Source: Verrucomicrobiia bacterium (GTDB lineage: Bacteria > Verrucomicrobiota > Verrucomicrobiia > Opitutales > Cerasicoccaceae). Taken from it: a stretch of DNA of 64,000 nucleotides. This document shows positions 15,739 through 43,759 of this stretch, one piece after another (position 1 is the first letter of the stretch; each line of letters starts with the position of its first letter). The position numbers were made by a program, and so were the translations under genes. Under the pieces are notes generated by a model. That model was not told where the DNA came from, did not search any database, and saw only the letters and a program-made list of their open reading frames with translations. The DNA lies in assembly GCA_030425485.1 (NCBI GenBank), contig JAUIAM010000003.1, positions 124,001-188,000 of the forward strand. Direction: 5' to 3'.

Positions 15739-16034
15739 ATATTGTCGATGTCGGAAGCTGTGTGCAGTCGCACTTTCCTGACATTCAGGTTTTGACGATT
15801 TAGTTCCTGGGGTACTTTGGCAGGAAGGCCGAACGATCTACTTCGCATTCCATGTGCGACACACACACACTCGTACCAGTACCGAATCACATTGACCCTG
15901 CGGTACTGGCGCCCGCGAGTGTAAATTTTCTGGATGCCTCCTGGCGACCAGTGATCAGGCGTGCAGCTTTTCTAGAAGGCTTTTTCTCACGCGAATAGTG
16001 CACGATATGTTTTTGTTTGACTTATATGATTGTA

Positions 16035-16052
16035 ATGGAAAACGTTTTCCAT
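16035..16052. promoter_or_regulatory. LacI-family operator 1 (perfect 18-bp palindrome)
   Basis: The sequence is ATGGAAAACGTTTTCCAT with the CG centre typical of LacI-family sites. It lies 64 bases before the ATG of the sugar transporter and 5 bases after a TATGAT hexamer, so bound repressor would cover the transcription start. The likely ligand is the LacI regulator encoded at 17566-18597. Confidence 0.85.
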
Positions 16053-16116
16053 TTTTGGGGAATAACCGTATCTTCCTCAATTCACCTCCATTGCTATCTT
16101 TCTCCCGCGTTCCCCC

Positions 16117-20349: not shown

Positions 20350-20383
20350 GACACCTGTTATCTTCACTTTGACGCATTCAATC

Positions 20384-20399
20384 AAGAAAACGTTTTCCA
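20384..20399. promoter_or_regulatory. LacI-family operator 2 (imperfect)
   Basis: AAGAAAACGTTTTCCA keeps the CG centre and the right half-site of the palindrome but differs in the outer two bases of the left half. It lies 35 bases upstream of the ATG of the minus-strand beta-helix gene and 35 bases from operator 3, which could allow cooperative binding or looping over the divergent promoter. Confidence 0.6.
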
Positions 20400-20434
20400 A
20401 ATCTGCGTTTTACCTGTTGACATTTGGCCGGCAA

Positions 20435-20454
20435 TATGGAAAACGTTTTCCATA
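20435..20454. promoter_or_regulatory. LacI-family operator 3 (perfect 20-bp palindrome)
   Basis: TATGGAAAACGTTTTCCATA is palindromic over 20 bases, the best copy in the window. A TTGACA hexamer lies at 20417-20422. It is 57 bases before the proposed TTG start of the LamG-GH2 gene, the first gene of the long plus-strand operon. Confidence 0.85.
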
Positions 20455-20511
20455 GTTTTCTTGCACCTGCTTTTGCGCGTCATCAATGCCCCCATCAACC
20501 CCTGTCTTCCT

Positions 20512-23500: not shown

Positions 23501-25179
23501 CCTTGGCCAAGCCGCTGGCGACCTTTGTCGAAGCGGGGGGACGCCTGCTCGTGCTTGAGCAGGAGGATTGGGCATCAGGATGGCTGCCCCTGGATATTCG
23601 GCTCAGTAGCACTGAAAGCAATAATATCTTTCCCGGCAGTCCGCAGCGATCTCTGTTCGGCAACCTTCCCGAAGCTGGCTTGCAATACTGGCAGGACGAC
23701 CACCGGGTCATCCGGCGACCACTGGTTGCTTCGACCTCGGGGCGCACGCGCCCTTTGGTGGACTATCCGGTAACGGCAGTGAGCGAGGCTTTCTTTGGGC
23801 AGGGCGTCTATCTCTTTTCCCAAATCCTTGTTCAGGAGAAGGTGGGAGTCGATCCCATGGCCGGGCGTGTGCTGCATGCTCTGATAAATTATCTGGATAA
23901 GGTGCCGGCGCCGACGGAGCGTTCCACCTATCTATGGGGGGCTGTCGATGGCCGTTATGCCGAAGCTGTGGTTGCGACAGGTGCCGAGTTAGCGGGAGCA
24001 AACGATAGCCTCGCCGAACTGCCTGCCTTTGCAGGGGATGTACAACTGCTGGTCGATGGTGCCAGTGTGGACTTGGACAAACTTCCAGAATTGAGAACCT
24101 GGGTAAATCGCGGAGGACGTATTGTTTTTCATAATCTAGACGCGGAGCAGATCGCTGTGGTCGGAGCTGTGTTTGACTTGGAGTTGGGCGCAGGTGAGAG
24201 GACTGAGCGTATCCGCCTCTTATCTGACGCACTGAATGCAGGCTTGAGTCCCTATGCCGTTGCCTTTGGCGAAAAGGCTTGGCCACGCGCCAATGTGCCA
24301 GTCGTCGGGGAGGGTGTGGAAGCTGCTACTGAACCCATGTTGTGGGGGAGCGTGCCCTATGGGGCAGGGGAGATCGTTTTTGATCAAAGTCAGTGGGAGT
24401 TCGAAAACAAGGACTACGAAAAGGCGAGTGAGTTTGGGCGTGTTTTCCTCATCAATCTTGGCGTTCCAATTGGTGCCTTACCCGTTACGAGCGGTATGGA
24501 GCAGGCATGGCATCCCATCGTGCTGGAGGAGGTCTTTAATGCTCCGCTGGCAACGGAATACAATAAGCGCAACCCGGACGGACGTAATATCGACGCGGGA
24601 AAACTCCTGCGGGGCGAGTGGCCACGCGGTCGACAGTCTTTCGAGGAAATTGAGGTGCTTATGCCCGACCCAGCCTCCGAGGAAGAGCCGTCGATCATAC
24701 GTGTCAACGCCAGGCGTCAGGCGGATGACGGCACATGGGTCGAAACGTTCCCGGGGGGCGAGTCAACGGTATCGGTGCCGGTGCCGCGTGTGCATGCTGA
24801 CGAACTGGCCTTTGTCCACAGCTATCTTCGCTTGTGGGGTGCCCCCTATCGTCCCCCGCAACCGACACCGCTCATCCTGACCTATCGCGTTTGCTTCGAG
24901 AGCGGGCGGGAAATCGAAATCCCGGTTTATTCAGCGCAGCATATTCGCGCTGTACGCACCAGCGTGCAACCCTTACCCAAGGCGGAGTTGGCCTTTCAGT
25001 CGCATGAAGTCGACGGCGAGGATGCCGGAGAGACGACCGCATATTACCTCATGCGGTGGCGCAATCCCTATCCGGAAGAGAAAATCAGGCGTATTGAGAT
25101 CGTAGCGAGTAACCAGTCTGCCCACATGCCCATCGTGCTGGCCATCAGTTACGCAGCTTCGGAAATAGCCTTTGACTAA
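20512..25179 (+). CDS. Secreted LamG-GH2 glycoside hydrolase (beta-galactosidase-like)
   Basis: 1555 residues from a TTG at 20512. This start gives a clean signal peptide (MKFYSH, hydrophobic core, APASSA), whereas the in-frame ATG at 20344 would place two operators inside the gene. Domains: LamG-like sandwich (~30-235), GH2 sugar-binding domain (LGEWDFAF to LQVGSF, ~275-405), Ig-like domain, then a TIM barrel (from WIEGNDFYLNGKKI). E647 in SGSNEFE is the acid/base and E745 in IMIGEMLPP the probable nucleophile. A long C-terminal part (~900-1555) contains a Rossmann-like glutamine-amidotransferase-type region and a beta domain, shared with the second GH2 at 36401. The role is inferred as exo-cleavage of beta-linked galactose or a related sugar outside the cytoplasm. 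Confidence 0.85.
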   Translation: MKFYSHIVTFILALVLLLLAPASSAIEPEVFLDFEGGGAEVLEPASGSFIRLEAGQLSPGRSGGRALTFSGDNRAVSIPWKSRFSETGSVLFWLKPEGEGGTVIALTAGGVHFANNHLKLTYDGASQAILAESRWKGEKAPYHWHGGTPKGSVPLGKWTQVALVQDGEGVKIYLNGQLTSTLTEGNAIGSWTDIQGVSPYQRSRWLLGGDLTKSAQGFQGLIDDLLITNEVLTEADIQRAYQGDSLVDVGDSDNTELALSVSGKRERVSMLGEWDFAFVPPEEDATEQPDSWTPIYIKEERMYAKPWWRYGVDLGEWKARDIDVVWYKKTVDIPKDLPRDRRLILHFDAVAFTSEVYWNGELLGRNLDGFLPFEFDITDKVRPGEPNELVLQVGSFRVAKSLGAPIGAMYDQHGGIWQPAWLESRGAAYVDSVFIQPSVRNEELTVDIENAGDVEQVHAVRLSFFDGEARLGEQVFPAEGQAGVRFTIPWENPELWWPQTPKLYQLGIELLGANGQVIDSTQETFGFREVWIEGNDFYLNGKKIHLYGRWGHTGQYYAARRYDGGYLSPEELWTAHKEGGGIDTVRLHCQPLPKVFLDEADRQGILLIPETALNHRPDTQVAIDHAVRMIERDRNHPSVVLWSGSNEFEHWKVPRSEATSFFLARVRDAMHEADPTRPVSHSAYGPTDGHDDVINYHYPERMRPYVNNWPNELFWPVDQSVCKKRETTGNYMQGEDRDKPIMIGEMLPPWRLEYSEGYGQDYFTLTSEERAALDLEQKPFWFSQALIVYRMLNVLHVGQSIGGSGYVDNPMKVEMARLAYAPVVGMFYPWTANYWADEPIETELWVSNDELEDFSGTLNWKLASAEGEVLASGQESVWIEQGGTAKVPLSVRVEPVAGNAWRDATWVAHLEGKIGDEVEQLNIEKPILIFPRKPGQLELHRKLAVWSTETTKPQVEALRPWLEDAAEVSDVATLQALAPRETILVLPGALDTAAQESLAKPLATFVEAGGRLLVLEQEDWASGWLPLDIRLSSTESNNIFPGSPQRSLFGNLPEAGLQYWQDDHRVIRRPLVASTSGRTRPLVDYPVTAVSEAFFGQGVYLFSQILVQEKVGVDPMAGRVLHALINYLDKVPAPTERSTYLWGAVDGRYAEAVVATGAELAGANDSLAELPAFAGDVQLLVDGASVDLDKLPELRTWVNRGGRIVFHNLDAEQIAVVGAVFDLELGAGERTERIRLLSDALNAGLSPYAVAFGEKAWPRANVPVVGEGVEAATEPMLWGSVPYGAGEIVFDQSQWEFENKDYEKASEFGRVFLINLGVPIGALPVTSGMEQAWHPIVLEEVFNAPLATEYNKRNPDGRNIDAGKLLRGEWPRGRQSFEEIEVLMPDPASEEEPSIIRVNARRQADDGTWVETFPGGESTVSVPVPRVHADELAFVHSYLRLWGAPYRPPQPTPLILTYRVCFESGREIEIPVYSAQHIRAVRTSVQPLPKAELAFQSHEVDGEDAGETTAYYLMRWRNPYPEEKIRRIEIVASNQSAHMPIVLAISYAASEIAFD

Positions 25180-25204: not shown

Positions 25205-26209
25205 ATGAACATCACCGAAAAGAAAACGATTTGGGGTCGGTATAATCCGGCGCTGAATGAACGCCTGAAGGCACTCATCGAGACAAAGTGGAGCGACCAC
25301 CCGCAAAGCCCGGTCATTGAGCCTTTTCTCAAAAACGTCATTGCTGACCCGACGGTCATCACGCCGTCCCTTTCACCTGATGGCCAGTGGCATATTATCA
25401 CCTGTGGCAGTCATGGCACGCTCGCTCAGTGGACGTCGCCGGACGGTATTGATTGGGAGCGCTATGCCTTTCACGAGTGGGATGGCTTTTCACCCTTCGT
25501 CTACCCGATGGACGGACGCTACTACCTGTTCTATCAGATGAACAATTTTCCCGAGCGCTGCTGGATCGTTATGCGCCACAGTGACGACCTGAAAAACTGG
25601 TCCGAACCCAAGACACTCCTGGAGCCCGATCTGGAATGGGAGGACATGGAGTTTCGCCCGACATGTCGTAATGCCTGTCTGACACCCATGCCGGACGGAC
25701 GTTTCGCCCTCTATTACAGTGGCGGTGTTAAACGCATCCCGGACCTGGGTTTTGAAGAACCAGCCAACATCGGCGTAGCATTCGCGGACAAAATCGATGG
25801 TCCGTATGTCAAACATCCCGAGCCGCTGCTTCCACCAGATGAGGATGACCCCTACCGTAATATCGGGGCGGGGGCGATGAAGGTCTACTACCTCGAAGCC
25901 TATGGCTTATACGTTGGGTTTAACAACGGTGTCTACTGGGATAAGGAGGTCGATCACAGCCGCTCTGCCATTCACGTGCTGCTATCGGAAGATGGTCTCG
26001 ACTGGTATGATACTCCAAACAATCCCATCATCGAACCAGAGGCCAACAGTTGGAAGTCCTCGCTGGTCTACCAACTTTGCCTTGCTGCCCACGGGGATGA
26101 GTGGCGCCTTTATTATAACTCACGCGAAGGTTGGGAAGTCGGTATCGAGCGTATTGGTTTGGCCATCGCGCCGCGAAACGGTGTTAACCCGAAAGGTGTC
26201 GTCAGCTAA
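25205..26209 (+). CDS. GH43-like five-bladed beta-propeller glycosidase
   Basis: 334 residues from the ATG at 25205, 25 bases after the GH2 stop; a TTG at 25172 would overlap that gene. The sequence shows repeated propeller elements: VIADPTVITPSLSPDGQWH, LAQWTSPDGIDW, SPFVYPMDGRYYLFYQ, MRHSDDLKNWSEP. The Asp of ADPTV fits the catalytic base of clan GH-F/GH32-like propellers, and the Glu of EWEDMEFRP may be the acid. No signal peptide is visible, so it probably acts on imported oligosaccharides. The family cannot be fixed from sequence alone; GH43, GH117-like and GH130-like propellers all look alike here. Its stop shares a base with the next ATG. Confidence 0.7.
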   Translation: MNITEKKTIWGRYNPALNERLKALIETKWSDHPQSPVIEPFLKNVIADPTVITPSLSPDGQWHIITCGSHGTLAQWTSPDGIDWERYAFHEWDGFSPFVYPMDGRYYLFYQMNNFPERCWIVMRHSDDLKNWSEPKTLLEPDLEWEDMEFRPTCRNACLTPMPDGRFALYYSGGVKRIPDLGFEEPANIGVAFADKIDGPYVKHPEPLLPPDEDDPYRNIGAGAMKVYYLEAYGLYVGFNNGVYWDKEVDHSRSAIHVLLSEDGLDWYDTPNNPIIEPEANSWKSSLVYQLCLAAHGDEWRLYYNSREGWEVGIERIGLAIAPRNGVNPKGVVS

Positions 26210-27732
26210 TGGCATCTGCCGAGTCCAGACCGAACATCCTGCTGCTCTTCACCGACCAGCAGCGTTTCGATGCGCTCGGCGCCCTCGGCAATCCCGTCCT
26301 GCGCACGCCGAATCTCGATCGGCTCTGCTCGGAGGGTACGGTGTTTACGCGCTGTTATACGCCCTCGCCGGTTTGTGTCCCGGCGAGGGCGGCACTGGTC
26401 AGTGGTTTGCCGCCGCATCGCACGGGTTGTTGGGACAATGGTACAAACATTGGCGAGGAGATTCCCAGCGTCATGGGGAAACTCACGGATCTGGGTTACC
26501 GGACGCATGGTATCGGTAAGATGCACTTCACCCCGCAGCGCGAACGGCTGTGGGGCTTCGAAAGCCGTGAGGTCAGCGAGCGTGGTGACGATGACTACCG
26601 TGCCTTTCTTGATGCCAACGGTTACGGGCATGTTCTCGACGTGCACGGGGCCTTGCGCGAAATGTATTGCGTGCCGCAGGTGTCCCAGATGCCTGCCCAC
26701 TTGCACGAGACCGCATGGGTAGCTGACAGGTCTATCGATTTTCTGAAAGATCGTGACCGGGAGCGTCCTTTCTTCCTCTGGTCGAGCTTCTTTAGTCCGC
26801 ATCCACCTTTTAATGCGCCGACCCCGTGGAATCTTATCTACTGGGCTGGCCAGATGCCTCCACCCTTCAGGCCTGAGGGGTACGAGGACCTGCTAACCTT
26901 CTGGAACCATCGCCAGCAGCGGGCCAAGTATCGCGACCAAGGGTACGATCTTTGGCTGATGCGTACCATCAAGGCGATTTATTACGCTTCCATTTCATTC
27001 GTTGATTTTCATATTGGGCGTATCCTTGAGGCTCTTGGAGACGATTTGGCCAATACCTTGGTCGTATTTGCCAGTGACCACGGTGAATTACTCGGTGACT
27101 ATGGTTGTGTCGGTAAGCGCTCGATGCTCGATGCCTCAGCTCGTGTGCCGTTGGTTGTACGCTGGCCCGACGGTCAACGTGCAGGAACGCGCCATGAGGG
27201 TGTAACCAGTTTGCTGGACTTGCACCCGACCTTCCTCGCTGCGGCGGGAAGCGAGCAGCCCACAGTATGTGAAGAGGGCAAAGATCTCGCCTCGGTTGCC
27301 GATGGCGGGGTGGGCGAGCGCACGGTCTACAGTCAGCTCCAGACAGACGGTATCGGCCTGCATATGGCCGTTAACGAGCGGCGCAAGTATGTGTACTCGG
27401 CTGCCGATGAGCGGGAGTGGCTCTTTGACCTGGAATCGGACCCGAAAGAAACGCACGACTTTGCTGGGAATACAGCCTATACGGATGATCGGGCAGCTTT
27501 ATCGACAGCCCTGAAAGAGCGTTATCGGAATGACCATTATAGCTCTTGCCTGGATGGTGCGTCTTGGCGTCGCTTCGGTAAGAGGGCCCTTCCTGATAAC
27601 CCGGATGATGGGGTTCTGGTTCAACACCCCAAGGGGGTGGAGAAGCTCTTGGAGGAACTGGGCCCTTATGCACCTCCTGCTTTGCCTGCCACCTGGTGGA
27701 TGGGAAAGCCCAACCCTAGCAACAAGGCATGA
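26209..27732 (+). CDS. Type I (formylglycine) sulfatase 1
   Basis: 507 residues. The formylglycine motif is C56-V-P-A-R in SPSPVCVPARAAL-like context (SPVCVPAR), so the Cys must be converted to formylglycine. Metal ligands are seen as D16 (LFTDQQ) and ASDHGE further on (calcium-binding DH pair). GKMHF supplies the usual Lys/His pocket. No signal peptide is present: the protein starts directly with RPNILLLFTDQQ, which argues for cytoplasmic action. It begins in the stop of the propeller gene (TAATG) and overlaps the next sulfatase by 4 bases. It resembles the sulfatase at 31013 (same PSPVC-x-PAR and GDLG/GDYG layouts). The substrate is likely a sulfated sugar in the imported glycan. Confidence 0.92.
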   Translation: MASAESRPNILLLFTDQQRFDALGALGNPVLRTPNLDRLCSEGTVFTRCYTPSPVCVPARAALVSGLPPHRTGCWDNGTNIGEEIPSVMGKLTDLGYRTHGIGKMHFTPQRERLWGFESREVSERGDDDYRAFLDANGYGHVLDVHGALREMYCVPQVSQMPAHLHETAWVADRSIDFLKDRDRERPFFLWSSFFSPHPPFNAPTPWNLIYWAGQMPPPFRPEGYEDLLTFWNHRQQRAKYRDQGYDLWLMRTIKAIYYASISFVDFHIGRILEALGDDLANTLVVFASDHGELLGDYGCVGKRSMLDASARVPLVVRWPDGQRAGTRHEGVTSLLDLHPTFLAAAGSEQPTVCEEGKDLASVADGGVGERTVYSQLQTDGIGLHMAVNERRKYVYSAADEREWLFDLESDPKETHDFAGNTAYTDDRAALSTALKERYRNDHYSSCLDGASWRRFGKRALPDNPDDGVLVQHPKGVEKLLEELGPYAPPALPATWWMGKPNPSNKA

Positions 27733-29141
27733 GCACTCACCCTTCAGTGCTCGTTTTGATCGCCGACGACTGGTCGCCACTGGCTGGTTGCTACGGTAAC
27801 GCGGTCGTGCGCACGCCCAACATTGATTCGGTGGCGGCGAAGGGTATGCTCTTTGAGCGTGCCTACTGCACGACGCCCTCGTGTGCGGCCTCGCGGGCAA
27901 ACATACTCACGGGCCTTTATAGCCATCAGCACGGGCAGTATGGGCATACGCATGGAGTGCACCACTTCTCTACGCATGAGCATGTACGCAGTTTGCCTGC
28001 TATACTCAACGATGCGGGTGTGCTCACCGGGATGATTGGCAAAGATCACGTTTCACCCCAAAGCGTGTATCCATTTTCTCACTACGACAAATCTCTGCCT
28101 TGGCGCACGCGAGACTTGGTGGCTTCCACTCGTCGCTTTCTAAAGGATGCTGATGGAAAGAGCTTCTACCTGCAGGTCGGGTCCATGTATCCGCACCGTA
28201 CTGGCGGGGACTTCGACCCCTCGGTGGGCGATGGATACGAACCGGATGTTCGCTACTCGCCAGATGAGGTTATCGTGCCGGATTTTCTGCCAGATACGAT
28301 CGGGGTGAGGCACGAGCTGGCGGATTATTACCGCTTTGTAACGCGCTTTGACCGCTTTGTTGGTGAGGTGCTTGGAGAGCTTGAACGTGCCGGGAGAATC
28401 AGGGATACGCTGGTGATGATCCTATCGGATCATGGTATGCCTTTCCCTGGTGCGAAGGCGTCGTCTTACAATACCGGGCATCATTGCCCGCTGATTATCC
28501 GGCACCCCGATGGTTATGGAGGTAAAACGGATGCCGGTGTTAACTGGACGGATATCGCTCCAACCGTAACTGATTTTCTGGATGTCTCACCGGAGGAATG
28601 TCCAGAGGAGTGGACGGGGCGATCCCTGCTTCCGCTGCTGGCGCACCCCGCTGCACCGGGCTACGAACTGACGTGGTTCTCCCATAGTTTTCATGAGGTA
28701 ACTAACTATTACCCTTACCGTGCGGTGCTCGATAGACGCTACAAGTACGTACGTCATTTGGCTTATCGTGAGCCCATGCCGCTTGGGACTGATCTCTACG
28801 ACTCGGTTACCTGGCAGCAGGTCCTGGCTGATAATAGCGAGCGCATGGGGAGTCGGGTGACCCGTGATGTATGCTTTCGACCGCAGGAGGCACTCTACGA
28901 CCTCGATGACGACCCGATGGAAACCGTCAACCTAATCGATGAGTCCGGGCTGCGGGAAACGGCGGAACGTCTGCGGGCAGCGCTCATGCAAATGCGCCTG
29001 CGTACTCGAGATCCATGGCTTGAACTGGATTACCAGCAGGGGCGCTTACCTGAGCACTTACGCGACGGTCTGTCGGGACGGTCCTGGCATGTGCCTCGTG
29101 GGCTCGCACCCCTCGCACAAGAGGAGTGCGCCAGGCAATAA
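27729..29141 (+). CDS. Type I sulfatase 2 (CAASR type, N-sulfoglucosamine sulfohydrolase-like)
   Basis: 470 residues. The maturation motif is C52-A-A-S-R in TTPSCAASRANIL, which fits C-x-A-x-R and not the C-x-P-x-R of the other three sulfatases here. Metal-site features are LIADDW near residue 11 and LSDHGM later. The overall layout (YSHQHGQYGHTHGVHHF, TGMIGKDHV) resembles the heparan N-sulfatase-like S1 group, though that does not prove the substrate. There is no signal peptide. It overlaps the preceding sulfatase by ATGA, so translation is coupled, and is followed 7 bases later by the sugar isomerase gene. Confidence 0.9.
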   Translation: MSTHPSVLVLIADDWSPLAGCYGNAVVRTPNIDSVAAKGMLFERAYCTTPSCAASRANILTGLYSHQHGQYGHTHGVHHFSTHEHVRSLPAILNDAGVLTGMIGKDHVSPQSVYPFSHYDKSLPWRTRDLVASTRRFLKDADGKSFYLQVGSMYPHRTGGDFDPSVGDGYEPDVRYSPDEVIVPDFLPDTIGVRHELADYYRFVTRFDRFVGEVLGELERAGRIRDTLVMILSDHGMPFPGAKASSYNTGHHCPLIIRHPDGYGGKTDAGVNWTDIAPTVTDFLDVSPEECPEEWTGRSLLPLLAHPAAPGYELTWFSHSFHEVTNYYPYRAVLDRRYKYVRHLAYREPMPLGTDLYDSVTWQQVLADNSERMGSRVTRDVCFRPQEALYDLDDDPMETVNLIDESGLRETAERLRAALMQMRLRTRDPWLELDYQQGRLPEHLRDGLSGRSWHVPRGLAPLAQEECARQ

Positions 29142-29148
29142 TTTACTT

Positions 29149-29976
29149 ATGAAACTATCTATCGTATCCACGCTACGGGGAGGCTTTTTCTTCCCAGACA
29201 TGCTGCCGGGAGAGAGCTTTCGGGAGCGTCTCGTTTCGCTGAAGCGCTTTGGTTTCGACGCGGTCGAAATCTGGGGGAAATGGTTGAAGGAGGACCTCGA
29301 CGATGTGCAGGCGGCGCTCAAGGCAGAAGGCGTTCCTGCTGGCAATATTTGTTCGGGCTTCCGTGGCAATCTTCTCGCGGGTGACCGCGATGAGCGCATG
29401 ACCTGCTTTCAGGACTTTTTCGAGCTCTTGGAGTTGGCCGCGAAGCTTGAGTCTGCCGGGCTGGTTTTTGTGCCGCTCTTCGACAAGCGCCCGCAGATGC
29501 CGGATCTCAGTCCGCTCTGGGACCCACACGAAGTTCAGCGGCAGGTATTTCTCGACATGTTGGGCAAGCTCACGGAGCGGGCTGAGTCTCTCGGAGTAAA
29601 GCTCCTGCTTGAGCCAGTCAACCGCTACGAGACGCACGTGGCCAACACCCTTGCTGATGCGGCCGATTATATTGAGGCAGTCGGCTCGGATGCGCTGCGC
29701 ATTACGGCAGATTTTTTCCATATGAATATCGAGGAGATGGATATGGCGGCGAGCATACGCCAGTACGGCCACCTCATTGGTCATGTTCACATGGTGGACT
29801 CTAATCGCTTCCTTCCCGGCCAGGGGCATACCGATTTTTCTCCCGCCATGCAGGCGCTAAAGGAAGTCGGCTACACGGGCAACCTGTCGCTGGAGTGCTT
29901 TGCCCGGGGCGAACCAGAAGTCGTGCTGCCGAAGTCGGTGGCTTTTATGAGAAACCTTATCGAAGACGCATCATGA
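29149..29976 (+). CDS. Sugar phosphate isomerase/epimerase (xylose-isomerase-like TIM barrel)
   Basis: 275 residues from the ATG at 29149; longer frames upstream lie inside the sulfatase gene. The metal ligands of the AP-endonuclease-2/xylose-isomerase-like barrel are visible: Glu in LLLEPVNRYE, Asp/His in ITADFFHMN, His in GHVHMVDSNR and Glu in LSLECF. HTDFSP is the usual substrate loop. Members isomerise or epimerise keto sugars, inositol derivatives or 3-keto-glycosides. It overlaps the Gfo/Idh/MocA gene by 4 bases (ATGA). That pairing, with an FAD oxidoreductase downstream, fits oxidation-epimerisation chemistry on a sugar, but this is inference. Confidence 0.85.
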   Translation: MKLSIVSTLRGGFFFPDMLPGESFRERLVSLKRFGFDAVEIWGKWLKEDLDDVQAALKAEGVPAGNICSGFRGNLLAGDRDERMTCFQDFFELLELAAKLESAGLVFVPLFDKRPQMPDLSPLWDPHEVQRQVFLDMLGKLTERAESLGVKLLLEPVNRYETHVANTLADAADYIEAVGSDALRITADFFHMNIEEMDMAASIRQYGHLIGHVHMVDSNRFLPGQGHTDFSPAMQALKEVGYTGNLSLECFARGEPEVVLPKSVAFMRNLIEDAS

Positions 29977-31001
29977 TTAAAATTGGAATCATAGGACTCG
30001 GCGGAGGTGGTGCCAACCACGCCAGTACGCAAGCGAAGAACCCCATGGCGGATCTTGTTGCCGTATCGGATATCGACACGGCATTGATGAAGAAGGTAGC
30101 GACTGAGAACAAGGTTCCGCATCAGTACAAGGACTGGCGAGATTTAATTGCCAACCCGGATGTCGATGCGGTGATCCTGGCCACGCCTCCCTTTATGCGC
30201 AAAGAGATGTTTCTGGCCGCGGCTGAAGCGGGCAAAGACATCCTGGCCGAAAAGCCTTTCGGTGTATCGCTGAAGGAGGCGAGAGAGATGGCTACGGCTG
30301 CCAGAAAACACAAGGTGCGCGCTATGGTCAACTTCGGCACACGCAACCTGCCAACGTACAAGAAGCTGCGCTCACTGGTCGCATCTGGTAAGTACGGTAA
30401 GCCTCAGTTCATTTGGTTTAAGTACTTCCTTGTCTGCAATCCCAAGCGTTTTATGCCGCCGGGTTGGTTCTGGAAAAAGGAGCTAAGCGGCGGGCATTTG
30501 TGCGAGAATGCCGGGCACGCCTTTGATTTGATCTGCGAGCTGATGGGGCCGGTAAAGTCCGTTAGCGGTACGATTGCAACCTTACCGATCAAGCACTATG
30601 CGGAGCGTTTAAAAAACGATCAACCAAACTCGGAAAACCTGGGCATAGCCACGCTTCAGCATGAGTCCGGAGCCATCGCAGTGTTGGCCAACGGCAGTAA
30701 CCCGGGTGGGCAGTGGGGGATGACCTTCGACCTGATTACCGACAGTTGCATTATCTCTGTGACCGGAGACAAGGTCATCGAGGTGCGGCAATACGGTGAG
30801 CGCATCTACCGTTATGCTTCGCCCGTAGGTTGGGACCCTATTCCACGTGGCTCGCGGGCCTTTGTTCGCTACTTGAGTAATGGCGGCGCACATGACGACT
30901 CCATCGCGACGGTGGAGGATGGTGTTCGCGCCATGCAAATCGCCGAGGCTGCCTACCTCTCCTCTGACAAGGGTAGGACTGTCGCCTTTGACAAAATCTA
31001 A
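29973..31001 (+). CDS. Gfo/Idh/MocA family NAD(P)-dependent oxidoreductase
   Basis: 342 residues from the ATG at 29973. The Rossmann motif is IGIIGLGGGGANHA (4-17). The family Glu-Lys-Pro is E93-K94-P95 in ILAEKPFG, with Lys as the catalytic base. The C-terminal domain carries GGHLCENAGHAFDL, giving the conserved His near residue 190. It would oxidise or reduce a sugar hydroxyl, most often at C1 or C3. It has no signal peptide. It is embedded between the isomerase (4-base overlap) and a sulfatase 11 bases downstream, in the same operon. Confidence 0.88.
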   Translation: MIKIGIIGLGGGGANHASTQAKNPMADLVAVSDIDTALMKKVATENKVPHQYKDWRDLIANPDVDAVILATPPFMRKEMFLAAAEAGKDILAEKPFGVSLKEAREMATAARKHKVRAMVNFGTRNLPTYKKLRSLVASGKYGKPQFIWFKYFLVCNPKRFMPPGWFWKKELSGGHLCENAGHAFDLICELMGPVKSVSGTIATLPIKHYAERLKNDQPNSENLGIATLQHESGAIAVLANGSNPGGQWGMTFDLITDSCIISVTGDKVIEVRQYGERIYRYASPVGWDPIPRGSRAFVRYLSNGGAHDDSIATVEDGVRAMQIAEAAYLSSDKGRTVAFDKI

Positions 31002-31012
31002 GCGATTCCCCC

Positions 31013-32503
31013 ATGCCTATCGATAAACCAAACATTCTGCTGATTCTGACCGACCAGCAACGAGCCGATACGATTGCCGCCCTCGGCAACGAGCGTATCC
31101 GTACACCCAATCTGGATCGTTTGGTATCGGAAGGGGTTGCCTTTACTAATGCCTATTCCCCATCGCCAGTCTGCGCGCCTGCCCGTGCATGTCTACACTA
31201 CGGACAGTATCCGGCCAAGACCCAATGCCTCGGTAATATCCACCCGACTACCCCGGATGACCGTGAGTCCTACGCGGACGTGTTCTCACGTCATGGCTAT
31301 GAGACCATCGGAATTGGTAAGTGTCATTTTCTGCCGGATCGGCTGGCCCTGCGCGGTTTCAAGCAGCGGCTTACGCAGGAGGAGGCACCACGTTGCATTG
31401 AAGATGATGATTACCTGAAGTTCATCCGGCAGAGCCCTTATAAAAATACCCGCGATGTGCATGGGACGTGGAGGGACCTGCTTTATATGCCGCAAACTTC
31501 ACCGCTTGATGAGGCGCATCACCCTACGCAGTGGGTTGGTGATCGTACGATAGACTTTATCCGGGAGAAGGCTGGGGGAGAGCACCCCTGGATGGCTTTT
31601 TGCAGTTTCATCCATCCTCATCCGCCCTACGCGCCACCGGCACCATGGGATATGCTGTACACTCCAGACGAGATGGAGTTGCCGTATCAGCCAGCGGGAT
31701 ATGAGTCGCGCCAGCCAGCTTTTCAGGGAAGTGACGGGTTGCATCATTACTATTTCGATCCACCCGTGAGCGATACGCTCTGGCGCATGGTTAAGTCGCG
31801 CTACTATGCCTGTATTTCCTTTGTGGACCACCAGATCGGGCGTATCCTGGATGCCCTCGAAAGCAGTGGGCAACTGGACAACACGCTCATTGTCTTCAGC
31901 TCGGATCACGGTGAGATGCTCGGCGACCTTGGCCTCATTGGTAAAGGTAACATGTACGAGTCTTCGGCCAGGATTCCACTTGTTGTACGTTGGGGGGATG
32001 GCCGCCATGCTGGCGAGCGAGTGGATCTGCCAGTGACGCTCGTGGATGTCGCCCCGACGATGCTTGCCGCTGCCGGGTTGCCGCAACTGTCCGATTGCGA
32101 TGGAGAAGATCTTCATCAGCTCATCGACTGCCGTGGTGAATATACTGATCGGATTGTTTTTTCCCATCTCTTTAACCCTGACCGGGGCAGGTACATGAGC
32201 CGGAGCAGACGCTATAAGTACATCCATAGTGCCAGCGACCATATCGAGCAACTTTTTGACCTCGTCGCGGACCCAAATGAAGACGTGAACCTGATTGATA
32301 AGCCCTCCCTGGCAGGCGTTAAAAGCCAGCTTAAGGAAGCGCTGTTTAATTATCTGAAGCAGAACGCTATGACGGCGGGCATACTAAATGAAGCGTCTGA
32401 TGACTGGAAGGACTGGCCCGACGATAAACGGCGCATGCCCCGTACGAAGTCCAACGATCCCTGCCCATGGTGGGTGGAGAGGGAACAGCCTACACACATT
32501 TGA
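31013..32503 (+). CDS. Type I (formylglycine) sulfatase 3
   Basis: 496 residues. The maturation motif is C54-A-P-A-R in SPVCAPARAC. The N terminus KPNILLILTDQQ gives the first metal Asp (D14) without any signal peptide. SSDHGEMLGD supplies the second metal-binding pair, and IGIGKCHF the pocket Lys and His. Closest relative in the window is the sulfatase at 26209, suggesting duplication within the locus followed by divergence to a different sulfate position. It is separated from the FAD oxidoreductase by 3 bases. The exact sulfate ester is not predictable. Confidence 0.92.
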   Translation: MPIDKPNILLILTDQQRADTIAALGNERIRTPNLDRLVSEGVAFTNAYSPSPVCAPARACLHYGQYPAKTQCLGNIHPTTPDDRESYADVFSRHGYETIGIGKCHFLPDRLALRGFKQRLTQEEAPRCIEDDDYLKFIRQSPYKNTRDVHGTWRDLLYMPQTSPLDEAHHPTQWVGDRTIDFIREKAGGEHPWMAFCSFIHPHPPYAPPAPWDMLYTPDEMELPYQPAGYESRQPAFQGSDGLHHYYFDPPVSDTLWRMVKSRYYACISFVDHQIGRILDALESSGQLDNTLIVFSSDHGEMLGDLGLIGKGNMYESSARIPLVVRWGDGRHAGERVDLPVTLVDVAPTMLAAAGLPQLSDCDGEDLHQLIDCRGEYTDRIVFSHLFNPDRGRYMSRSRRYKYIHSASDHIEQLFDLVADPNEDVNLIDKPSLAGVKSQLKEALFNYLKQNAMTAGILNEASDDWKDWPDDKRRMPRTKSNDPCPWWVEREQPTHI

Positions 32504-34790: not shown

Positions 34791-34808
34791 ATGGAAAACG
34801 TTTTCCAT
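34791..34808. promoter_or_regulatory. LacI-family operator 4 (perfect 18-bp palindrome)
   Basis: ATGGAAAACGTTTTCCAT, identical to operator 1, 29 bases before the ATG of the PEP-CTERM gene. A possible promoter has TTGAAA at 34765-34770 and TAGCAT at 34787-34792 (16-base spacing), the latter overlapping the operator. It would control the second plus-strand unit of block 2. Confidence 0.85.
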
Positions 34809-36400: not shown

Positions 36401-39400
36401 ATGATGAGTTTTTTCTTGTGCGGGGCGTTCCGGCAGTTCCGGGGTGTATGGTGTTTACTGATTTGCGTATTGGGGTTCGTGTGCGCTTGTGGCGGGCAGG
36501 AGCGTACGCAGGAGTCCCTGCTGGGGCAATGGCAGATCACGCCAGTGATGCCTGGGGAGGCGCTGAAGGATACACCACCGGATGGTCCATGGAAGACCAT
36601 TGATATCCCTCACGATCAGGCCTGGCTGACACAGGGAAAGGATTACAAAGGGCCGTTGCATGGCCTGCACTTTGGGGTGAATGCCAACAAGATACGTTAC
36701 GTTTGGTATCGCAAGGAATTTGAGCTCGATTCTGAGCAGCGAAACGAGGTTCGCCAGGGGCGGAGACTGTTTATCCACTTTGACGCCGTTGCTTTCGTAA
36801 CCGATGTCTACCTCAACGGCCATCATCTTGGCCGTAGCATAGATGGCTTCCTGCCCTTCGAGTTCGATGTCACTGACCTGGTTAACCTCAGTGGCGAGAA
36901 TACGCTGGAACTGAGGGTAGGTACCTATCATGTGGCCAAGGAGTTGGGCGCGCCCGTGGGAAATACTTTCCAGCAGCACGGTGGCATCTGGCAGCCGGCA
37001 TATCTGGAAACGCGTGGCTCAGCCTATGTGGAGGATATCTTTGTGCAGCCATCGGTGCGTAAGGGAGAGTTCAAGGTCGACTTGACTGTTAAGGGTGATG
37101 CGGGGGCTATACGGTCTGTTCGTTATGAAGTGTTGGACGATGGCGAGAGCGTGATCGAGGAGACGTTGCCGTTAGGTGAAGCCGTGAGTGTTGCTCTACC
37201 TTTTGATAACCCGACACTCTGGTGGCCCGATAGTCCGCATTTGTATACCTTGCGGACAGCATTGATCGCAGAAGACGGCTCCGTGCTGGATTACTTTGAC
37301 CAAGCGTTTGGCTTTCGTGAAGTTTGGATCGAGGGAACTGGGTTTTACCTTAATGGCAAAAAAGTTCATCTCTACGGACGCTGGACGCACGCGCCGTCGT
37401 TCTACCGTTCGCGTCTGTATCCGCCCGAGGCAGAGCCGTATTATGACGGGCGTTATACCATGCCGGAGGGAGGAGAGTACCTTACACCTGAAAATCTGTG
37501 GATGGCGCATAAGGAGCGCGGGGGGATTAATGTCGTACGCATTCATTGCCAGCCGGTGCCCAAGGTTTATCTTGATGAGGCAGACCGCCAGGGGATTTTG
37601 CTGATTGCCGAAACCGCCATCGACCATCGACCCAGGACGGAAGAGGCGTTTGAGCACGCTGTCAACTACGTCAAGCGCGACCGCAATCACCCGAGTATCG
37701 TCATGTGGTCGGGGTCGAATGAATTTTACCTGTGGATGGCTCCACAGCCACAACCCTACAAAACCTTTATGGCACAGGTCAGCCAGGGGATGCATGGAGT
37801 GGACCCGACGCGTCCGGTAACGCACTCCGGATTCGGCGTGGCCGATGAGAATGACGAGGTGATGAACTATCACTACCCGACACTAATGCGTCCGCAGTAT
37901 ATGCCCAATGAGCTGTTTTGGCCGCAGGACGTCGAGGAGTGTCGTCGGGATAAGGTCAAGACCTACCTCGAGCAATGGGAGCAGGACAAGCCGCTCATGC
38001 TCGGTGAAGTTCTTCCTCCGTGGAAGATGCGCTATGAATACGGTTTTGGCCATGAGTATTTCAAGCTGACGGCGCAGGAGCAGTTGGAGTTGGACCTGGA
38101 GCAAAAGCCGCTGCTGTACGCGAAGGTTGCGCTGATGTATCGGATGCAGGGTGTGATGCACCTCGGACAGTCAATTGGCGGCTCCGGTTACGTCGATAAC
38201 CCGATTAAGCAGCGCTTGGCGGACTTGGCCTATACCACGGTTGGGGGGATGTTTTATCCCTGGACGAAGCACTGGTTTGAGGGCCAGCCGATTCGTTACG
38301 AGTTATGGCTGTCTAACATTGGCTTGGAGGACTTTGAGGGAGACGTTGCCTTTCATCTAACTCAAGGGGAAAAGGTACTGTACGCATCCGAGCAGGCGCT
38401 GCGCATCCCACAAGGTGAAGCCCTGAAGGTGCCGCTCGAGATGACGGTCCACGCCGCGGATTATAACGCTGGGGTTGAATTACTGCTTACGGCACAAGTG
38501 GCTGGACGGGTGGGTGATGAGCAGATCGATACGCTCATCGAGCAGTCGCTTCGCGTGCTCCCCGCGGACGAGACCATTTCTGACCTGAGCCGTAGCGTTT
38601 TTATCTGGGCTGGCGGTGACTCCTACGAGCGAGCTGAAGCCTTATGGACGCGGATTGAAGAGGCGAAGTTTGTCGAGTCGGCTCAAGAGGTTCGGCAACT
38701 CGATCCCGGGGAAAGTATCCTCGTGCTCCCCGCTGGCGTGCATGCCCAGGCACAGGCCGCGCTTTCAGAATCCTTGAGTGCATATCTCAAGCGCGGGGGG
38801 CGCTTGCTTGTGTTGGAGCAGGAGAGCATGGAGCAAGCCTGGCTGCCCACGGAGATGGCTTTGTTGGATGATGCTCAGAACACCCTTTTCGCCAGTCCGG
38901 ACAGCCTGGCCCTTGGCTCGCTCCCAGAAGACGCATTGACCTACTGGCAGGGGGATCACCGGGTGGTACGTCGACCTTTCGCTGAGTCCATCGGGGGCGG
39001 CGTAACGGTCTTGGCCGATTTTCCAAGTGCGGGTGTTGTGCAGCTTCGCTGCGGCGAGGGGCTTGCCGTGCTCTCACAAGTTCTGGTCCAGGAAAAACTG
39101 AGTTTGGAGCCGATGGCGGAGGAAGTGCTGGAGGAGTTGCTTCGCTATTTAGACGAGGTTCGTATGCCCAGGCTGCGTGCGACGCATCTATGGGCAGATG
39201 AAGGGAGTCGCTACCGGGAAGCGCTTTCCGAGATCGGCGTGGTGCTGGAAAAGGAGACGTTCACACCTCGACCTGCGCTGGGAAAGAACGAACAGCTTCT
39301 CGTGGATGCCACGACAGTTGACATCGCTGAGCTTGTTGTCGTGCGCGATTGGGTAAAGCAGGGCGGGAGGCTGGTCCTGCACGATCTCAGCAACGAGCAA

Positions 39401-40481
39401 ATACGCGAGGTGGGAACCTTGTTCTCGCTGCCGATCGAAGCTGGAAAACCGCAGGAGCGTGTGGCACTGCTCGATAGTCCCCTGAGCTTTGGCATGAGCC
39501 CATATCTGTTGGCCTTTGGAGACGACGCCTGGCCATTGGCAGCCAGTCCGGTGTCTCTGACAAGCTCGGATTCGCATCTGGCCGAGCCAGCTACAGCGCC
39601 TATGCTCTGGGGAAGTTATCGCTATGGTGAAGGTGAGCTGGTGATTGATCAGGTTCAGTGGGACCGCGAGGCAAAGGAACGGCAGAAAGCCCTTCGCTTT
39701 GGCACCACACTGATCATTCATCAGTGTGGTGAAAGCCCTTCGCTTTGGCACCACACTGATGAATGATCTCGGTGTGCCGATGCAAGCCATCGAGGTGAGC
39801 ACAGGCGATGACGCCGGCTGGATGCCTATCGACTTATCGGCTAATATTAATGCGGGCGACACGATGGCTTTACCCGTGGTGAATGCCGGTAATGGAGCGA
39901 CTTCACGCCTTGATTTGCTCTCTGGCCAATGGCCGCGTGGCCGACAAGATATAGATGGCGTGACTTTCATTTTACCGGACCCGGTTGCGAATGAAGATTG
40001 CCTGATCCGCTTGAACACCAGGCGAGAATTGCCTGGCGGTACTATGTTAGAAACATTTCCGGGCCAGCCCACACGCCAGCGCATTCGCATCCCGCAGCGG
40101 ATCAACGCCGAGGAACTGGCTTTTGTCCACGGCTACATGCGTCTCTGGGACGAGCCCTACGAGCCCCCCGCACCTCCGGCCACCGTCATGACCTATCGGG
40201 TTCACTATGATACGGGCCGCGTCGTGGACATCCCGGTGCGTGATGGTGAAGCGATTCGACATATGCAGGACAAGCGGTCTGGCGAGTTGCCCGACGCGGT
40301 TCCTGCGTTCAAAACCCAAGTGCCCTACAGAGAGGGGAACACCTATTACATGATGCGGTGGCTTAACCCCCACCCGGAAGAAAAAATTGTCGCTGTGGAG
40401 GTGCTGGCGGAGCAATCACCGGCTTACGTGCCGGTTGTTCTTAGCATGAGTTTTGTCGAGTCCGCATTAGCCTACGACTAG
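36401..40481 (+). pseudogene. GH2 glycoside hydrolase lipoprotein, frameshifted by a 46-bp insertion
   Basis: The first frame (36401-39766) encodes a lipobox (VCAC), GH2 sugar-binding and Ig-like domains, and a TIM barrel with E441 (SGSNEFY) as acid/base and E536 (LMLGEVLPP) as nucleophile. At about residue 1104 the frame shifts. The remaining ~240 residues continue in the next frame to 40481. Removing 39715-39760 restores one protein of 1344 residues that aligns along its length with the LamG-GH2 at 20512 but lacks the LamG domain. The catalytic domains are intact upstream of the shift, so a truncated but active enzyme is possible. A true mutation, a phase-variable state or a sequencing/assembly error are all possible. 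Confidence 0.85.
39686..39760 (+). repeat. Quasi-palindromic 29-bp duplication causing a frameshift
   Basis: A 29-base segment (39686-39714) is repeated exactly at 39732-39760. Between them lie 17 bases, CATTCATCAGTGTGGTG, which are the exact reverse complement of CACCACACTGATGAATG at 39750-39766, the end of the second copy and its continuation. This direct-inverted-direct layout is what a polymerase template switch to the complementary strand and back would leave. Net insertion is 46 bases, shifting the GH2 frame by one. Confidence 0.9.
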
Positions 40482-40517: not shown

Positions 40518-42098
40518 ATGAATATTCTCAGACAACTCCTTCTAGCGGGACTTTTCGTTACCTCGATGTCATCTCTGGTGCATGCGGATGTGCGTATGCC
40601 TGCTCTCTTTGGGGATCATATGGTTTTGCAGCGTGATCGTCCATTGCCCGTCTGGGGATGGGCTGAGCCGAGCGAGCGGGTTCGCGTTTCGCTGGGCACG
40701 GTAGCTGCGGAGACTGTGGCTGATCAACAGGGGAAATGGCAACTTAGCCTGCCTGCGATGGAAGCTTCGCACGCACCGCTTGAGATGGTGGTTTCCGGGC
40801 GTAATCGCATTGTAATCAAAGATGTATTGGTGGGCGATGTATGGGTGTGCGCGGGGCAGTCGAATATGGAGCGTACGGTACTCCAGTCACATAACGCCAA
40901 ACAGGCTTTGTCAGAAGCCGACCTCCCTGCCATACGCTTCTTTCAGGTCGGGCGTAAAATCGCTTTTGAGCCACAGGCAGATTGCGCAGGGCAATGGGTG
41001 GTGTGTGAGCTGGGTTCACCTGCGCTAAGAAAGTTTTCGGCAGTCGCCTATTTTTTCGGCAAGGAAATTTTTGCCGCGCAGGGTATGCCCGTGGGACTTA
41101 TCGGAACCTACCGTGGTGGATCGCCAGCAGAAGCCTGGACGAGCCTTGAAAAACTCGGGTCCGTGCCCGCCCTCCAGCACTACGTCGAGGCATTTGAGGA
41201 AACCAAGATACACCTGCCCGAATTGGTCGAGGTCTACAATAAGGAGACTTTACCTGCCTGGCGTTTAGCCGTGAAAGCGTGGGAAGCCAAGCCGGCACCA
41301 CGAGGCCCCAAACCACGCTGGCCGCTGAGCCCCAGTACAAACCCGCGGCAGCCTACCGTACTTTTTAACGGTATGGTGAACCCGATCATTCCCTTTGCGA
41401 TTAAAGGTATTATCTGGTATCAAGGGGAAAACAACGGTCTCAGCACTGAGCATGCGAGCGAGTACGCAGTGCTCTTTCCAGCTATGATTGCTGATTGGCG
41501 GGAGCGCTGGGGGCAGGGTGATTTCCCTTTTCTTTACGTCCAACTCGCGAGCTACCAGACCAAGCAGCCCGAGAACGATTGGCCAAGGTTGCGGGAGTCG
41601 CAACGCCAGGCTCTCACCGTGCCCGAGACAGCCATGGCGGTGAGCATTGATATTGGTGAGCAATTCGACAGCCACCCCAAGAACAAAGTCGATGTGGGAA
41701 AACGCCTTGCGCTGGCTGCCCGTCACGTAGCCTACGGCGAAGACATTGTTTACTCTGGGCCTATGGTGAAGTCCATGCATACCGAAGGCACGAAGGCAGT
41801 GCTTCGGTTTGAACACATCGGTAGCGGGCTGACCATTGGTGTCCCACCTCCGATCCGTATGGGGCAAAAGCCACAGCAACCGTCGAGTTCCCTGCAGTCC
41901 TTTGAGATTGCCGGAGTAGAAGGTGAATTTTTTCCGGCAGAGGCAATCATCCAGGGGGATACCTTGGTGGTATCTTCGCCTGAGGTAAAGGCACCCGTTG
42001 CGGTGCGTTACGCCTGGGCCGCATGGCCTGACCCACGGCCCAATCTTTATAACCGGGACGGGTTGCCCGCCTCTCCTTTCACCGTACGATTGCCCTGA
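40518..42098 (+). CDS. Sialate O-acetylesterase-type (SASA/SGNH) carbohydrate esterase
   Basis: 526 residues. The signal peptide ends at LVHA-D. The start of the mature part (MPALFGDHMVLQRDRPLPVWGWA) is the beta-sandwich typical of this family. The catalytic Ser is S115 in CAGQSNME (SGNH block I), with block V near DSHPKNKVDVGKRLA supplying Asp and His. IIWYQGENN is the third conserved block. The family removes acetyl groups from sialic acids, xylans or other glycans in the periplasm. It follows the frameshifted GH2 by 36 bases in the same unit and overlaps the convergent sulfatase by 52 bases. Confidence 0.9.
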   Translation: MNILRQLLLAGLFVTSMSSLVHADVRMPALFGDHMVLQRDRPLPVWGWAEPSERVRVSLGTVAAETVADQQGKWQLSLPAMEASHAPLEMVVSGRNRIVIKDVLVGDVWVCAGQSNMERTVLQSHNAKQALSEADLPAIRFFQVGRKIAFEPQADCAGQWVVCELGSPALRKFSAVAYFFGKEIFAAQGMPVGLIGTYRGGSPAEAWTSLEKLGSVPALQHYVEAFEETKIHLPELVEVYNKETLPAWRLAVKAWEAKPAPRGPKPRWPLSPSTNPRQPTVLFNGMVNPIIPFAIKGIIWYQGENNGLSTEHASEYAVLFPAMIADWRERWGQGDFPFLYVQLASYQTKQPENDWPRLRESQRQALTVPETAMAVSIDIGEQFDSHPKNKVDVGKRLALAARHVAYGEDIVYSGPMVKSMHTEGTKAVLRFEHIGSGLTIGVPPPIRMGQKPQQPSSSLQSFEIAGVEGEFFPAEAIIQGDTLVVSSPEVKAPVAVRYAWAAWPDPRPNLYNRDGLPASPFTVRLP

Positions 42099-43555
42099 AC
42101 GCACTCTTTGCTGTCGCGTGGGTCGAGCTTCCAGGGGACGACATCCGCGGTCTCCAGATAGTGGGCCAGCAGGCGCTCCTTCATTTCTGGGACGATAGGC
42201 TGGTAGTGCGTGTTACCAATGAGGTTTGTGGTTTCGCATGGATCGTCTTTCAGGTCGTACAACTCGTCGGCCTCCTCCTTTCTGAGCACATACTTGTAGC
42301 GATCCGTGCGGCACATAATGGCTTTGCCGTGAGCTTGTGCATCATTGGCCTGAACATGAACTCGTGGCCAGTAGAGGCTGTCTTTATTCGCCTGTGGGGT
42401 ACCCTCGCTGCAATGTTCCTCGGTGGGCAGGCGTCCACCCTCACAAAAGACAGCGTCCCGGTGGGGTGTGTTCCGGCTTAGCAGGGGCAAGAGTGATTTA
42501 CCAAAATGTGTGTACTCCGGTTGCCAGCCAATGAGGTCGTATACCGTGGCAGGGAAGTCGATCAGCTCGACAAGCGCGTTGCGGGTACCCGGCATGCGTG
42601 GGTGGCTTTGTGGAGGCTTGAAAATAAAGGGCACGCGGGTCAGGCAATCTTCAAAGGTGTTCTGGGCTTTCTCGACCAAGCCGTAGTCACCCGTGTAGTC
42701 ACCATGGTCGGAGAAGAAAAACAGGGCGGTATCATCCCAACAGCCCATTGCCTTAAAGGCGTCGATCAGTCTACCGAGTGCCTGGTCGGTGCGCATGGCC
42801 ATCCCATAATAGGTTGCTCGGAGTTCATCCCACTGATCCTCGCTCCAGTGGACCAAGGCCTGGCGTTTACGCACTTCCTCCAGCAGGCGGGGTTTGCCGG
42901 GAGCAAGATCTTCAGCGCGAATCCGGGGCGGGAGCTTTGACCTGTCAATAGCACTGAAATAAGGCTCTTCGACGCCGTATGGCGGGTGGGGATACTCCAG
43001 CGCAAGGAAAAGGCAGAGCGGCTTTTCGCCCCCATAGTTTTGGGCAAAGGAGGTGGCGTCGAGTACATGAGCCCAGTCTGAGTCGAGGTACACGCTCTCG
43101 CTCACCTCCTTCTTCAGGCGACCTGCCATAAATGAATAGGCGTCTGCATCGCGCCAGCTTGTGTGTGTGTGCAGATTGGGGTGAGTCGGTTTCACCTGAT
43201 GGCGATAGTTGCAGGACGCAAGCGGGTCGGTTACGAGGTCGTTTTTTCCGCCCCAGTAGACGAAGTAGCCAGCCTTCTTTAGCTCCTTCAACAGACAGGG
43301 TTCCCCGGTGTGAAGAAGGTGCTGCATGCTGCGATGTCCGCGGACATGAGGGTACCAGCCTGTCATGAAGGAGCATCGACTGGGCGTGCAAACCGGATTC
43401 TGGCAAAAGGTCTGAGTGAAGGAAATTGCCTCTGTTTCAACCAATTGGTCAAGTACGGGTGTTTGTGCTGCACGATTTCCGAGGTGCCCAAGCATATCCC
43501 CGCGCCACTGATCAGGAATGAAGAAAATCAGGTTCGGTTTCTTATCAGCACTCAT
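42047..43555 (-). CDS. Type I (formylglycine) sulfatase 4
   Basis: 502 residues from the ATG at 43555; an ATG 18 bases upstream lies inside the operator and is less likely. The maturation motif is C56-T-P-S-R in NPVCTPSRCSFMTG, the canonical form. Metal-site features are FFIPDQW (D15) and FFSDHGDYTGD. The layout (WGGKNDL, ALEYPHPPYG) differs from the other three, so it probably removes a different sulfate. No signal peptide. It is convergent with the esterase gene and their coding sequences overlap by 52 bases. Operator 5 overlaps its 5' leader, so the LacI repressor is the likely regulator. It is the last gene before repeat C. Confidence 0.92.
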   Translation of the reverse strand: MSADKKPNLIFFIPDQWRGDMLGHLGNRAAQTPVLDQLVETEAISFTQTFCQNPVCTPSRCSFMTGWYPHVRGHRSMQHLLHTGEPCLLKELKKAGYFVYWGGKNDLVTDPLASCNYRHQVKPTHPNLHTHTSWRDADAYSFMAGRLKKEVSESVYLDSDWAHVLDATSFAQNYGGEKPLCLFLALEYPHPPYGVEEPYFSAIDRSKLPPRIRAEDLAPGKPRLLEEVRKRQALVHWSEDQWDELRATYYGMAMRTDQALGRLIDAFKAMGCWDDTALFFFSDHGDYTGDYGLVEKAQNTFEDCLTRVPFIFKPPQSHPRMPGTRNALVELIDFPATVYDLIGWQPEYTHFGKSLLPLLSRNTPHRDAVFCEGGRLPTEEHCSEGTPQANKDSLYWPRVHVQANDAQAHGKAIMCRTDRYKYVLRKEEADELYDLKDDPCETTNLIGNTHYQPIVPEMKERLLAHYLETADVVPWKLDPRDSKECVQGNRTVKGEAGNPSRL

Positions 43556-43556
43556 G

Positions 43557-43572
43557 TGGAAATCGTTTTCCA
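43557..43572. promoter_or_regulatory. LacI-family operator 5 (one mismatch)
   Basis: TGGAAATCGTTTTCCA differs from the perfect palindrome at one position left of the CG centre. It lies directly before the ATG at 43555 of the minus-strand sulfatase, in the 5' leader, and is the right-most copy, close to repeat C. Confidence 0.7.
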
Positions 43573-43759
43573 TTTTCGAGGCTGAGTCGAGCAGATTTGA
43601 AGAAGAGCCTTTCTGTCTTACTAGGGTGAAGAACAGTATCCCGCAAGCGACTAGCTTGACGCGATTGGCTTAAGGGTGCTGTCTGAAATATTGAACGACG
43701 TGGGGTAGTCAGCTTGTCGCAAGCTTGTGTGAAAATTCCGGAATAAGCTCAGCGAAATT

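Follow-up and report, generated by a model that had tools for sequence, protein, structure and literature searches.

Small inverted triplications (SITs), in which a duplicated segment, an inverted piece and a second copy of the duplicate follow one another (DUP/INV/DUP), have been described in yeast rad27 mutants and in human cancers, with median lengths of 148/160/148 bp (PMC13334657). They are raised in rad27/FEN1 mutants and have about 6 bp of microhomology at their junctions, and their reported range goes from 7 bp to over 10 kb for the duplication and from 20 bp for the inverted piece (PMC13334657). On E. coli plasmids carrying SITs, one duplicate and the inverted piece were lost together and precisely, which gave back the original locus; in the absence of SbcCD or Rep this loss was suppressed, and in the absence of DnaQ or HolC it was faster (PMC13334657). 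Template switches have also been formalised with four switch points. In that scheme, events of the '4 before 1' type yield both direct and inverted repeats, and an inter-strand switch is obligatory wherever point 2 is ahead of point 1 (PMC7954356). Inter-strand jumps in the first arm are likewise recognised by an inverted spacer (PMC8604942).

Here we describe a 46-bp insertion that breaks a carbohydrate-active enzyme gene of the GH2 family in the genome of a Verrucomicrobiota bacterium. The window, i.e. the whole stretch of 64,000 nucleotides that was analysed, spans positions 124001-188000 of a 243-kb contig in a draft genome of 3.81 Mb (62 contigs, 98.2% complete). The gene appears in it as two open reading frames (ORFs):

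36401-39766, + strand, 5' part of the broken GH2-family gene, 1121 aa (ORF list, Pfam domains, translation)
39726-40481, + strand, 3' part in a shifted frame, a 251-aa ORF (ORF list, translation), 64% identical to the intact orthologue

The 5' part has GH2 sugar-binding (N), Ig-like and TIM-barrel domains according to Pfam. Its product consists of about 1104 native residues followed by 17 foreign residues, IIHQCGESPSLWHHTDE, and ends at a TGA (39764-39766). The length of the insert is 1 mod 3, hence the frameshift, and the earlier claim that deleting 46 bases yields a single frame of 1344 codons is borne out by simple arithmetic, as the gene span minus 46 bp is 4035 nt, or 1344 codons plus the stop. 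Approximately 240 C-terminal residues are thus cut off. They match no Pfam family, and they are conserved in an intact orthologue and two paralogues; the break interrupts a conserved segment, ...FG..LMN.LGV. The DUF4350-like match that closely precedes the break is weak or sub-threshold, and the broken gene scores well below the cut-off of every named GH2 equivalog. An enzyme of 1344 residues that is cut at about residue 1104 has probably lost its function.

The repeats at the lesion are arranged as follows:

39685-39714, + strand, direct repeat copy 1, 30 nt, from the repeat search; copied before the first jump in the proposed event
39712-39731, + strand, left arm of a 20-nt perfect inverted repeat, from the repeat search
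39715-39730, + strand, inverted segment that separates the two copies, a reverse complement of nearby sequence, 16-20 nt depending on the choice of breakpoints
39731-39760, + strand, direct repeat copy 2, 30 nt, from the repeat search
39749-39768, + strand, right arm of the inverted repeat, matching the template of the inverted segment (hairpin fold)

The direct repeat is exact, with a spacing of 46 bp, and flanks an inverted piece as the preliminary description had it, although it is 30 nt long and not 29. The 17 bases reported there as an exact reverse complement fall within the 20-nt inverted repeat, whose arms match at 100% and are predicted to fold as DNA into a hairpin of -25.4 kcal/mol (z -10.6). 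The 46-bp insertion can be placed equivalently anywhere from 39685 to 39715. Across the whole window, exact direct repeats of at least 14 nt within 300 bp comprise this 30-nt repeat and one 14-nt operator-like palindrome, and none else.

With its inverted repeat nested in a direct repeat, the insert looks like a very small mobile element and its target duplication, which brings to mind a MITE, an integron cassette or an attachment site. However, every base of the insert derives from the adjacent 38 bp, and no other copy of it was found in the genome. The local origin of the bases refutes the insertion of a mobile or site-specific element, to which we give practically no credence.

The 46 bases are likely the product of a single local template switch, giving a small inverted triplication, in the lineage of this genome. 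Starting from the joined flanks, we enumerated by script every forward, reverse-complement and forward copy route to the observed sequence. This exhaustive search returned eight equivalent four-point solutions, all representing one event and reproducing the sequence exactly. The four switch points are in the order 4-3-1-2 along the ancestral sequence, with a microhomology of 3 nt (GAT) at jump 1 and of 1 nt (G) at jump 2, and the spacer GAATG is present inverted as CATTC, as an inter-strand jump in the first arm would leave it. The template switch proposed in the preliminary description is therefore the best explanation, as four switch points give the exact sequence and the intact homologues are without the insert.

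We infer from this architecture a replicative mechanism, its strand and an origin in the cell rather than in the assembly. The strand being copied rightwards would reach ...CACTGAT (39714), where its 3' end would leave the template. At a weak quasi-palindrome, the freed 3' end could then pair by GAT with the ATC that the opposite strand carries 5 bases further on. Sixteen to seventeen bases would be copied backwards, turning the spacer GAATG into CATTC and repeating CACCACACTGAT in reverse. Synthesis would finally go back to the first template at a point some 30 bases upstream, overlapping by 1 base, and those 30 bases would be copied a second time. An imperfect hairpin predicted at the jump site in the joined flanks (-6.1 kcal/mol as DNA, z -2.3, with 6 of 200 shuffles as good) is no more than suggestive; the quasi-palindrome is weak on the other strand (z -1.2). 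The same sequence could also be the outcome of a mirror-image event, with leftward synthesis and an intra-strand snap-back in the order 3-4-2-1. We favour the rightward, inter-strand version because the first jump of its mirror image would have a single base of pairing. The return jump has only 1 nt of microhomology, which counts against the template switch. A history in two steps, a tandem duplication followed by a palindrome mutation, is conceivable, if less economical than one event.

Judging from its sequence, the lesion would belong to a known type of mutation. It shares with SITs the DUP/INV/DUP order and the spacers, and possibly the microhomology at the junctions. Unlike typical SITs, it is smaller (30/17/30 versus a median of 148/160/148 bp); its 30-bp duplication is within the reported range, while its inverted piece of 16-20 bp is at or just under the 20-bp minimum. 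Its microhomologies of 3 and 1 nt are also shorter than the usual 6 or so, and it is found in a bacterial genome. As in '4 before 1' template switches (PMC7954356, S5 Fig), the interval from point 4 to point 1 is directly repeated and accompanied by inverted repeats, a plain alignment displays one large insertion, and one set of four points reproduces the derived sequence exactly; those events were described in great apes, in contrast with the bacterial one reported here. The quasipalindrome-associated template-switch mutations of the Ripley model, known from E. coli (PMC7202029), similarly involve a polymerase that hops twice at an imperfect inverted repeat. Nevertheless, events of the Ripley type perfect an existing palindrome, whereas this lesion keeps the old arms, inverts the spacer and adds 46 bp, including a 30-bp duplication. 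We thus rejected a conversion of quasipalindrome to palindrome.

The closest relative bearing the gene is G005, a member of the same family, in which the orthologue is open in one frame of 1333 codons. Two paralogues, one in the same genome as the lesion and one in G005, are also open (1559 and 1620 aa). The following gene serves as a control for an uninterrupted C-terminus:

20344-25179, + strand, intact GH2-family paralogue in the same cluster

At the site of the break, EVTKARRFGVALMNNLGV of the orthologue aligns with ERQKALRFGTTL / MNDLGV of the broken gene, and the homologues have no extra residues and no trace of the repeat. Among 373 genomes of the order, only 6 contain relatives of the C-terminal part. 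Leaving the broken gene aside, all the matches to this part in the 373 genomes are in uninterrupted frames, nearly all of them long. A more distant homologue was found in Geminisphaera colitermitum TAV2 by a scan of genome contigs. With a same-family orthologue and two paralogues uninterrupted, the ancestral state was without the insert, the direction of change being deduced from a relative within the family, at a protein identity of about 65-70%, rather than from close sister lineages. The frame of the downstream 240 codons is still open and has retained a codon-position bias, with differences of 0.29/0.23/0.66 at the three codon positions, versus 0.26/0.16/0.59 upstream. We read the lesion as recent because the repeat copies are identical and because the downstream frame is open with this bias. 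The sequence is thus consistent with an event that is young compared with the divergence from G005, in agreement with what had been proposed, and no date follows from it.

An intact downstream frame would also be expected if the gene worked in two parts, with the 3' part translated by coupling and the two chains associating. A native in-frame ATG at 39759 indeed overlaps the TGA of the 5' part: the frames overlap, with the start codon 5 bases ahead of the stop, and 240 codons of the downstream frame are uninterrupted. However, neither start is preceded by a Shine-Dalgarno-like sequence, a strong hairpin occupies the site, and the protein is one chain in the intact homologues. A recent lesion predicts an intact downstream frame equally well. 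A working two-part gene, which could hold on top of a template-switch origin, consequently appears improbable to us.

We ran a detector for the direct-inverted-direct order on the window, on shuffles of it, on other sequence of the same genome and on a congener. It fired once within the window, at the lesion alone. It did not fire in 20 mononucleotide shuffles of the window, in about 708 kb of other sequence from the same genome or in 400 kb of the congener G001. In this sample of stretches, which with the window amounts to 772 kb, or about 20% of the genome, the lesion is the sole event of its kind. Viral contigs, phage records and a first scan of genome contigs gave no matches. A genome-wide artefact or mutator was rejected, as there is no second event in the 772 kb or in the 400 kb of G001.

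These figures bear on the idea that the insert might be absent from the cells, as a fold-back chimera generated by amplification or by the assembler. Template-switch chimeras do arise in vitro as well, and the genome is a draft in 62 contigs. Yet the lesion lies in the middle of a 243-kb contig, far from its ends, and two exact jumps would be required in the majority of the reads. Library chimeras should moreover recur, whereas the 772 kb hold no second event, and the lesion is base-exact and matches a class of mutations known in vivo. We hold an assembly or library artefact to be unlikely.

The preliminary description also raised a reversible switch. This holds in the sense of a loss by slippage: a hairpin enclosed by a 30-nt direct repeat with a 46-bp spacing lends itself well to precise deletion. 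Since such a loss between the 30-base repeats would restore the gene, the lesion would probably be revertible, and by analogy with SIT loss in E. coli this route is plausible. It does not hold in the sense of an inversion: inversion between the arms leaves the length unchanged, so that the 46-bp insertion (1 mod 3) would remain and the frame would stay broken. We accordingly discarded an invertible switch. A programmed or phase-variable switch, in which direct or inverted repeats toggle the gene, would benefit from the same slippage. However, the intact homologues bear no trace of the repeat and, since a deletion is not undone by the same route, the lesion could be made anew only through another two-jump event, so there would be no cycle. 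Such a switch seems very improbable.

The cluster around the lesion also encodes sulfatases (26209-27732, 27729-29141, 31013-32503 and 42047-43573), and a 526-aa protein (40518-42098), which no family model named and which we take to be sialate O-acetylesterase-like. In the sulfatase stretch at 27729-31001 of the window, the ORFs 27729-29141, 28939-29976 and 29895-31001 overlap, which could be due to over-extension of start codons or to a second frame break. Palindromes of the form TGGAAAACGTTTTCCA, reminiscent of LacI-family operators, occur near cluster genes (16034-16053, 20386-20454 and 34791-34808 in the window; also L030:16271-16332), and palindromes of this type occur at the G005 cluster too. 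Elsewhere in the genome, we observed a CRISPR-like array near the start of a contig (L048:32-722, G000:C60), with a 31-nt repeat, GTTTCAATCCGCGCCCCCGTGTGGGGGCGAC, and a spacing of about 66 bp, and a tandem hexamer array with the unit GAGACG (L021:12043-12093, G000:C4).

As for the repair genes, the polymerase domain of DNA polymerase I (PF00476) has no match in this genome, in any of the 9 other sampled genomes of the family, or in 70 of the 88 genomes sampled from the order and family. TIGR00593 matches in this genome over its first 280 positions only, in a stand-alone 5'-nuclease of 305 residues (G000:C39:58783-59619, locus L094:1239-2156). A full-text literature search found no report of a missing Pol I polymerase domain in this group. 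SbcD (TIGR00619) is likewise absent from this genome and from the 9 other sampled family genomes, while 13 of 14 control genomes match. A weak hit to the SbcC model at C33:59403 is an Smc protein and not SbcC. UvrD-like helicases are present. These are functions that are linked elsewhere to the formation and removal of inverted triplications. Because faulty Okazaki-fragment maturation makes SITs and SbcCD helps to remove them in other organisms, it is tempting to speculate that this lineage forms or keeps such lesions more often, and that the broken gene might be a natural example. We consider this doubtful: a single event across 772 kb, and zero across 400 kb of a congener that has this gene set too, lend no support to a raised rate. 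We leave the missing SbcD and Pol I domain as a conjecture, since the whole family shares the absence yet a single event was seen.

Our analysis documents a base-exact case of a probable two-jump template switch in a non-model bacterium, which duplicates and inverts at once and whose target, a carbohydrate-active enzyme gene, is broken by the event. In annotation, such events resemble plain insertions or pseudogenes and are easily overlooked. As the class is unstable and precise reversion is possible, apparent pseudogenes of the same kind may be temporary. Lastly, the absence of the Pol I polymerase domain and of SbcD makes the rate of such lesions in this lineage a testable question.
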